The notes under the pieces were generated by a model. It worked only from the letters and a program-made list of their open reading frames with translations, did not search any database and was not told the DNA's origin. Below are positions 11,159 to 11,848 of a stretch of DNA of 55,553 bases, in pieces. The stretch's first letter is position 1. Each line of letters starts with the position of its first letter. Position numbers and translations under genes: made by a program. The stretch comes from a virus: positions 1 to 55,553 of the IMG/VR virus record IMGVR_UViG_3300023265_000002. The stretch is one strand, 5' to 3'.

Positions 11159-11175
11159 ATTCATAGACGATGAAT
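11159..11175. promoter_or_regulatory. Inverted repeat ATTCAT-N5-ATGAAT, copy 1
   Basis: ATTCAT AGACG ATGAAT, A/T-rich in a G/C-rich genome and matched by a second copy with the same spacing at 11832-11848. Identical arms with different 5-nt centres look like a dimeric protein-binding site. The two copies flank the divergent gene pair 11242-11758. Confidence 0.5.
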
Positions 11176-11197
11176 GCACCTGCCTCGAGCACGACAA

Positions 11198-11229
11198 AGG
11201 GCCCCCTTCCCTTGAGGGTTGGGGGCCCT
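11198..11229. terminator. Bidirectional terminator between convergent genes
   Basis: AGGGCCCCC/GGGGGCCCT, a perfect 9-bp stem with a 14-nt loop, between the plus-strand gene ending at 11154 and the minus-strand gene ending at 11242. Confidence 0.65.
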
Positions 11230-11241
11230 GGTGTGCCGGGG

Positions 11242-11418
11242 TCAGAGTGAGCGGATGGCGTTCTCGATCAGGGCGGCCGCGTGGATGGGGGCGAGCATCC
11301 TCGCCTGGCGGCGACGGGCGTCGCGGGCGTGCTCGGTGAACCCGAGTGCCTCGCACTTGCGGGCGATGCGGGCGTTGTAGTCGGCGAGGAGGTTCTCGGC
11401 GTGCATCGTGTTCGTCAT
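11242..11418 (-). CDS. Small leaderless helical protein on the minus strand, 58 aa
   Basis: The only minus-strand gene in the left accessory region. It begins ATGACGAACACG six bases from its -10. The chain is helical and charged (NLLADYNARIARKCEALGF), with a basic RDARRRQARML patch, and could be a tiny DNA- or protein-binding bundle. It faces away from the 11528 gene, each with its own operator, and the pair is bracketed by ATTCAT-N5-ATGAAT repeats. A self-contained regulatory or toxin-antitoxin-like module is a guess from layout only. Confidence 0.7.
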   Translation of the reverse strand: MTNTMHAENLLADYNARIARKCEALGFTEHARDARRRQARMLAPIHAAALIENAIRSL

Positions 11419-11424
11419 GACACG

Positions 11425-11454
11425 AGCGTACCCCCCACGGTGGGGGGTACGCAA
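11425..11454 (-). promoter_or_regulatory. Operator-promoter 7 (minus strand, leaderless)
   Basis: On the minus strand: TTGCGT (11454-11449), 18-nt spacer with CCCCCCACCGTGGGGGG, TACGCT (11430-11425), 6 nt before ATG 11418. Its -35 is only 37 bases from that of the divergent promoter at 11492. Confidence 0.85.
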
Positions 11455-11491
11455 CTCCTAGTGAAGCAGGTCACATGGTTGAGATTCCGTG

Positions 11492-11521
11492 TTGACACCC
11501 CCCACGGTGGGGGGTTAAGCT
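11492..11521 (+). promoter_or_regulatory. Operator-promoter 8 (leaderless)
   Basis: TTGACA (11492-11497), 18-nt spacer with CCCCCCACGGTGGGGGG, TAAGCT (11516-11521), 6 nt before ATG 11528. Divergent to operator-promoter 7. Confidence 0.85.
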
Positions 11522-11527
11522 ACTCCC

Positions 11528-11758
11528 ATGACGAACAACGGAAGCCACACCATCACCACCACGGTCACCGACAACGCCACCCCGGAGCAGTGCACGCACC
11601 TCCTGCGCACCATCAAGGACGTGCGCGGCACGGGCACCCGGCTCGCCGTGAAGATGATCGACCAGTTCATGCGCATCACCGAGACGGACACCGACGGCGA
11701 GAAGCTGGCCATCGACGTCTACCCGAACGGCACCGTGACGGACCCCTTCCACGTCTGA
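11528..11758 (+). CDS. Small leaderless protein, 76 aa
   Basis: Starts ATGACGAACAAC. The body (TITTTVTDNATPEQCTHLLR) suggests a strand, a helix and further strands (MRITETDTDGEKLAIDVY), a compact alpha/beta fold. One Cys, no catalytic pattern. It is a single-gene cassette ending in a 10-bp stem-loop and diverges from the 58-aa gene on its left. Confidence 0.75.
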   Translation: MTNNGSHTITTTVTDNATPEQCTHLLRTIKDVRGTGTRLAVKMIDQFMRITETDTDGEKLAIDVYPNGTVTDPFHV

Positions 11759-11770
11759 CCGCCGGCCACC

Positions 11771-11806
11771 AGCGCCCCGCCCCCCAGCTCGAGGGAGCGG
11801 GGCGCT
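11771..11806 (+). terminator. Stem-loop terminator
   Basis: Perfect 10-bp repeat AGCGCCCCGC/GCGGGGCGCT with a 16-nt loop, followed by CTGCTGTG. Confidence 0.7.
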
Positions 11807-11831
11807 CTGCTGTGCACGGCCAGGCCGATGG

Positions 11832-11848
11832 ATTCATTGGCTATGAAT
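11832..11848. promoter_or_regulatory. Inverted repeat ATTCAT-N5-ATGAAT, copy 2
   Basis: ATTCAT TGGCT ATGAAT, 17 bases upstream of the -35 of the promoter at 11865. Same arms and spacing as 11159-11175 with a different centre. Confidence 0.5.

Follow-up and report, generated by a model that had tools for sequence, protein, structure and literature searches.

A divergent pair of small genes in a phage genome lies between two 17-bp inverted repeats, and the locus raises the question of what these repeats do: whether they belong to the pair, to its regulation or to the exchange of the genes themselves. We analyzed the whole stretch of DNA, a virus record of 55,553 bp with ~70% GC, referred to here as the window. 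The contig probably represents a whole genome with circular permutation, as its ends carry a 127-bp direct repeat (1-127 and 55427-55553). Its genes include those for portal, head, tail, terminase, endolysin, SSB, Erf-like annealing (44928-46988), and RusA-like proteins. Among named phages, those with the most similar portal proteins (~30% identity) infect Microbacterium, Gordonia, and other actinobacteria. An 803-aa protein of the window (16449-18860) is possibly a fused head protein: its best PHROG profiles are those of portal, head maturation protease and, partly, an RNA ligase.

The motif ATTCAT-N5-ATGAAT was found as two exact copies in the window, ATTCATAGACGATGAAT at 11159-11175 on the left and ATTCATTGGCTATGAAT at 11832-11848 on the right. 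The sequence-only reading had reported two 17-bp inverted repeats with identical arms and different centres, and this description proved exact. No third copy was detected in the 55.5-kb window at up to two mismatches. From base composition, 3e-5 exact copies per window are expected. At up to two mismatches, 100 dinucleotide shuffles contained a mean of 0.06 copies, and none of the 100 reached two.

Table 1. Features of the island and of its counterpart in the related phage (window coordinates unless marked L033).
Feature	Position	Strand	Remarks
191-aa core gene	10579..11154	+	Left border of the island
Left palindrome	11154..11180		Core 11159-11175, ATTCAT-AGACG-ATGAAT; extended arms GATGTATTCAT / ATGAATGCACC; flanks the 58-aa unit on its 3' side and lies 4 nt beyond the stop of the 191-aa gene; counterpart at the same place in the relative (L033 7286), 3 differences in 27
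GC-rich hairpin 3' of the 58-aa gene	11198..11229		Terminator-like, without a T tail
58-aa ORF	11242..11418	-	Counted from its ATG; modelled two-helix hairpin; no family match
Operator palindrome CCCCCCACGGTGGGGGG	11431..11447		Within the promoter of the 58-aa gene
Operator palindrome CCCCCCACGGTGGGGGG	11498..11514		Within the promoter of the 76-aa gene (TTGACA at 11492)
76-aa ORF	11528..11758	+	No family match above the cut-off; 70-aa homologue (46%) in opposite orientation in the relative
GC-rich hairpin 3' of the 76-aa gene	11771..11806	+	
Right palindrome	11827..11853		Core 11832-11848, ATTCAT-TGGCT-ATGAAT; flanks the 76-aa unit on its 3' side, with the -35 box of the 153-aa gene 16 nt downstream; counterpart at the same place in the relative (L033 8442), same centre, 5 differences in 27, 0 in the core
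Operator palindrome	11871..11887		In the promoter of the 153-aa gene (TTGACA at 11865); adjoins the right repeat
153-aa ORF	11900..12361	+	97% conserved in the relative, where a palindrome follows; none follows in the window
102-aa ORF	12405..12713	+	Own operator at 12376; window only; a lone palindrome at this place in the relative
All 12 CCCCCC-N5-GGGGGG sites	669, 1628, 5667, 8011, 9821, 11431, 11498, 11871, 12376, 19194, 42219, 54298		
Window island, left to right			191-aa, palindrome, 58-aa (minus), two operators, 76-aa (plus), palindrome, operator, 153-aa, operator, 102-aa, 163-aa
Relative island, left (window orientation)	L033		191-aa homologue, palindrome 7286, 106-aa (minus), operator, palindrome 7741
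Relative island, middle	L033		70-aa (minus, homologue of the 76-aa gene), two operators, 78-aa (plus), palindrome 8442
Relative island, right	L033		Operator, 153-aa (plus), palindrome 8990, 163-aa gene

The divergent pair with its back-to-back operator-promoters was also present as described (Table 1). In both promoters the 17-bp operator palindrome is located between the -35 and -10 elements, and the -10 element lies ~6 nt from the ATG, which suggests that the mRNAs are leaderless. A GC-rich hairpin separates each gene of the pair from its repeat, and the ATTCAT repeats are located just outside these hairpins. The calculated folding energies of 11186-11240 were -37.4 and -33.4 kcal/mol on the two strands, and that of 11765-11825 was -33.7 kcal/mol with a z score of only -1.5. 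T-tailed terminators were looked for after the 58-aa and 76-aa genes, and none was found. Exact CCCCCC-N5-GGGGGG sites occur 12 times in the window; most of them occupy the entire 17-bp spacer in a promoter with TTGACA, and the -10 element stands a few nucleotides from a ATGACGAAC start. These operators constitute a genome-wide regulon, separate from the ATTCAT repeats, with mRNAs that seem to be leaderless. Promoters built in this way, with ATTAT or ATAAT as the operator centre, were also observed in more distant phage records (L003, L005, L006, L007, L010, and L012) with a portal ~35% identical. The operator pattern gave no match in genome contigs.

The cassette proteins had no family match at useful E-values; the 58-aa and 76-aa proteins were checked against Pfam, PHROG, and PADLOC. 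The 58-aa protein was modelled from a single sequence as a helical hairpin (pLDDT 86), and the 76-aa protein from two sequences as two helices and three strands (pLDDT 79). When the two models were compared with the PDB, the best E-values were 1.6 and 0.22, neither of them significant.

The sequence-only reading had seen no other copies of the repeat. This is correct for the window but not beyond it, as a scan of IMG/VR detected four exact copies in a close relative, IMGVR_UViG_3300023269_000002 (55,701 bp). All four fall within the island seen in the window, bordered in both phages by two core genes, namely the 191-aa gene and the 163-aa gene that precedes the portal. No further copy was found outside the island in the whole record of the relative at up to one mismatch. 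Four more distant operator-bearing records contained none at the same threshold, the relative being the one positive among five. The arms extend outward with the consensus GATGYATTCAT, which is partly degenerate in some copies: 8 of the 12 outer arms match it well (at least 9 of 11, with Y as either base), and the other four match poorly. The centres vary among the copies, and TGGCT is common to both copies that precede the 153-aa gene. At the two sites shared by the phages, 8 of 54 bases have changed, with 0 changes among the 24 core-arm bases (hypergeometric P 0.006, from a small sample in which the arms themselves had defined the site).

We then compared the DNA of the two phages, which are co-linear; the comparison covered window positions 1-26427 and 41232-55553. 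At three junctions the edges of homology lie within 0-9 bp of a palindrome. Homology spans the 191-aa gene and the left palindrome and stops at 11178, the right edge of the left repeat. It resumes at 11823, 9 bp before the core of the right palindrome, and breaks off once more at the 3' end of the 153-aa gene (12359). Beyond this point the window is homologous again from 12717 and the relative from L033 9006, which is the final base of its fourth palindrome core. Each of the six palindromes of the two phages falls at or within a segment in which they differ by entire genes. Window 11409-11920 aligns in inverted orientation, at 68%, to 8152-7668 of the relative. This block holds the 76-aa gene with its promoter region, hairpin, palindrome, and the next promoter; homology thus crosses the palindrome, which is not the end of the block. 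Palindromes are not found at every whole-gene difference. Those at 7264-7533 and 43809-44069, where window genes are absent from the relative by our own gene calls, have none at their edges, and the 102-aa gene has one on neither side in the window. Other alignment gaps (3808-4025, 10794-10865, 25419-25711, 48062-48477, and 50489-50881) lie largely within ORFs by their coordinates, and the relative has a small extra stretch near window 43349.

The 76-aa homologue of the relative is inverted and stands beside an unrelated 78-aa gene, and no relative of the 58-aa gene was found in that phage. These results indicate that the 58-aa and 76-aa genes are not an obligate pair. A toxin-antitoxin pair was considered for them and is unsupported, since the partner differs in the relative and neither protein matched a toxin or antitoxin family. 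The cassette is a single gene rather than a divergent pair: six genes (58 and 76 aa in the window; 106, 70, 78, and 153 aa in the relative) have an operator-promoter on the 5' side and a palindrome on the 3' side, with stop-to-palindrome distances, in this order, of 66, 73, 65, 64, 62, and 18 nt. The suggestion that the repeats mark the ends of an inserted module was largely borne out, in that homology stops and restarts at the repeats with differing material between them, provided that the module is taken as single-gene units and not as the pair. No relative with the same pair was found; the only relative with a 76-aa homologue does have the repeats. The predicted cassette genes are, judged by their turnover, accessory genes. 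Furthermore, three copies of the palindrome stand exactly 16 nt upstream of TTGACA (window 11832, L033 8442, and L033 7741 on the minus strand). Between the 106-aa and 153-aa genes, which are unrelated and share MTNTTPA, sequence similarity extends from the palindrome across the promoter into the first codons.

Other carriers were sought in several ways. The pattern GATGNATTCAT-N5-ATGAATG matched 17 stretches of viral contigs, among which the relative alone had more than one core copy; the other 16 (32-52% GC, one copy each) were taken as chance. ATTCAT-N5-ATGAAT followed by TTGACACC matched 9 stretches, of which only the relative is high in GC and the other 8 have 31-40%. In genome contigs, the 27-bp form gave six single matches, one of them in Labedaea rhizosphaerae. 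The genome of this bacterium contains nine core copies, mostly with a GAGG-type centre and largely intergenic, three of them in a ~146-bp tandem. Among 296 sampled genomes of its bacterial class, 286 had no copy, 9 had one or two, and only Labedaea had nine. We judged this to be probably a separate host repeat, as its centre is mostly conserved, unlike those of the phage copies. Scanning the window and 11 locus sequences for repeated palindromes revealed no ATTCAT-type repeat in the portal-based relatives except in the two phages; the scan took in 11 of 54 loci (L033-L041, L045, and L046). Protein searches of phages, viral contigs, or both with the 191-, 76-, 58-, 153-, 106-, and 78-aa proteins returned only the relative or nothing. 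One of these searches failed to recover the relative's 46% homologue of the 76-aa protein, which makes its negative a weak one, as is that of a second search. An alignment-based search with the 76-aa protein recovered that homologue and nothing else.

We propose, at about an even chance, that the repeats act as the borders of small gene cassettes that are exchangeable and lie in an accessory island flanked by two core genes. A cassette would comprise a promoter with the CCCCCC-N5-GGGGGG operator in its spacer, a leaderless ORF near ATGACGAAC, usually a GC hairpin, and a 3' palindrome of 17 bp (up to 27). Cassettes occur in either orientation and are not the same in phages that are co-linear elsewhere; homology breaks at the palindromes, which would be the actual joints. 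Exchange would occur by homology-directed recombination, in which the short shared palindrome and operator-start sequences would serve as anchors and be annealed by the Erf-like protein. This route is favoured since such an annealing protein is encoded, and profile searches for tyrosine recombinase (PF00589), serine resolvase (PF00239), and Y1 transposase (PF01797) were empty in both phage genomes; the same searches were positive in 14, 10, and 5 of 14 control genomes, respectively. Reuse as joints, protein binding, or both would account for the conservation of the arms. With a palindrome as the joint, a cassette could be attached either way round; both orientations are seen for the 76/70-aa gene. 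The direct observations behind this proposal are the positions and copy numbers of the palindromes, their coincidence with breakpoints, the inverted 76-aa homologue, and the core-arm conservation. Two genomes are involved, 17-27 bp of homology would be short for general recombination, and recombination itself is deduced from the comparison. The whole-gene differences that lack palindromes and the inverted block, whose homology crosses its palindrome, likewise speak against the proposal. The exact 16-nt spacing of three copies from the -35 box would be needless for a mere joint unless the palindrome moves together with the promoter.

This spacing fits an alternative explanation, in which the palindromes are operators for a dimeric DNA-binding protein of the phage or its host (an activator, an insulator, or a second repressor), the variation of the island has other causes, and the sites move along with promoters. 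Perfect dyad symmetry, conserved arms with a variable centre, and core arms unchanged between the phages are all consistent with such a site. If transcription starts at the ATG, the centre of the three copies in the 16-nt register would fall near -60, a usual position for an activator. The other three of the six copies have no adjacent promoter in that register, however, and most operator-promoters of both phages lack an ATTCAT palindrome. The spacing may also be inherited with the shared palindrome-promoter-start segment, as the intervening sequence is similar too. We regard a regulator site as somewhat unlikely but still as a serious alternative, and the fixed spacing and arm conservation are the reasons for keeping it in consideration. 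The related suggestion that the repeats bind a second protein, perhaps one of the pair, does not hold well for the 58-aa protein, which is unlikely to be the binder because the repeats are kept in the relative, where no homologue of it was found. In Cluster O mycobacteriophages, whose repeats are analogous, a regulatory role was considered unlikely by those who described them (PMC4351075).

The palindromes could instead act as RNA, as hairpins at transcript 3' ends that aid termination or the protection or processing of mRNA. For five genes they are located past the GC hairpin, and in three copies folding is far better than in shuffled sequences (z -5.4, -4.9, and -5.1), but the other three fold poorly or into a different structure (z -1.9, -0.7, and -1.4). 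Changes between the phages are not compensatory, with positions 5 and 26 of the left site changed on one side each, and copies between a GC hairpin and the next promoter would probably hardly be transcribed. An RNA role is improbable, and an RNA hairpin as the main function was rejected because only half of the copies fold well. More improbable still is an arrangement like that of integrons or REP-type systems, with the palindromes as targets of a dedicated site-specific recombinase or transposase acting in trans. This explanation would draw on the single-gene units, which have their palindrome on the 3' side and are found in both orientations, and on the palindrome that stands alone at a place occupied by a gene in the other phage; against it stand the empty profile searches with their working controls and the differing centres, which provide no identical overlap sequences. 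Tyrosine recombinases usually need such identity. We give the same low probability to an integron-like system without its own integrase, whose cassettes would be captured, lost, and flipped at the palindrome by a recombinase of the host or a co-infecting phage and co-controlled through the shared operator. Finally, unrelated palindromes might lie near variable genes by chance, given that only two related genomes are involved and that intergenic DNA tolerates both breakpoints and palindromes. This is very improbable and already refuted for the repeats themselves: the two 70%-GC phages hold six exact copies, against 3e-5 expected per window (0.06 at two mismatches), and neither phage has a copy outside the island.

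The cassette-boundary reading bears on how small phage orphan genes originate and are swapped without breaking their neighbours; here, a short palindrome would mark the joints. A newcomer gene with its own operator-controlled, apparently leaderless promoter would fall under phage control on arrival. The palindrome thus offers a concrete and testable element for cassette exchange, of a weight limited by its two known carriers.

Several known systems resemble the island in part. Integron gene cassettes are single-gene units, each with a palindromic 3' site (attC). Unlike them, the units described here have their own promoters, occur in both orientations, and carry a 17-27-bp site, and no integrase was found. 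With regard to transposon or insertion-sequence ends, the families searched for in both genomes were serine resolvases (PF00239) and Y1 transposases (PF01797), and neither gave a match. In T4-type phages, Arbiol et al. reportedly described in 2010 the PeSLs, stem-loops with a promoter at gene boundaries of variable regions, which were proposed to mediate shuffling. Here, three of the six palindromes stand 16 nt from a -35 box, and the other three do not. The palindrome-promoter-start segment may itself be the shared piece, in the manner of a PeSL. The two differ in phage type, sequence, and promoter; here, a second palindrome occupies the promoter spacer and the mRNAs look leaderless. Phage mosaicism more generally has been attributed to homologous recombination at short conserved sequences flanking modules (PMC3029335). 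Compared with such boundary sequences, the element here is a palindrome, would permit joining in either orientation, and recurs beside unrelated genes.

The closest precedent is found in the Cluster O mycobacteriophages (the Corndog group). They contain 34 genome-wide copies of a 17-bp palindrome, TGTTCGG-N3-CCGAACA, a third of them within genes and of unknown function; indels between relatives are flanked by repeats, with a single repeat in other genomes (PMC4351075). Both systems share a 17-bp site with invariant arms and a variable centre, an often intergenic position in an actinobacterial phage, and changes in gene content at the repeats between close relatives, here at three junctions (PMC4351075). 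The lone palindrome of the relative, where the window has a gene, likewise resembles the single repeat described there after deletion (PMC4351075). The differences from what is described there are the sequence, ATTCAT-N5-ATGAAT, and the distribution, with two or four copies in one island, each 3' of an operator-driven gene (PMC4351075). By analogy, the ATTCAT palindromes would work like the Cluster O repeats, yet they stand outside that repeat family.
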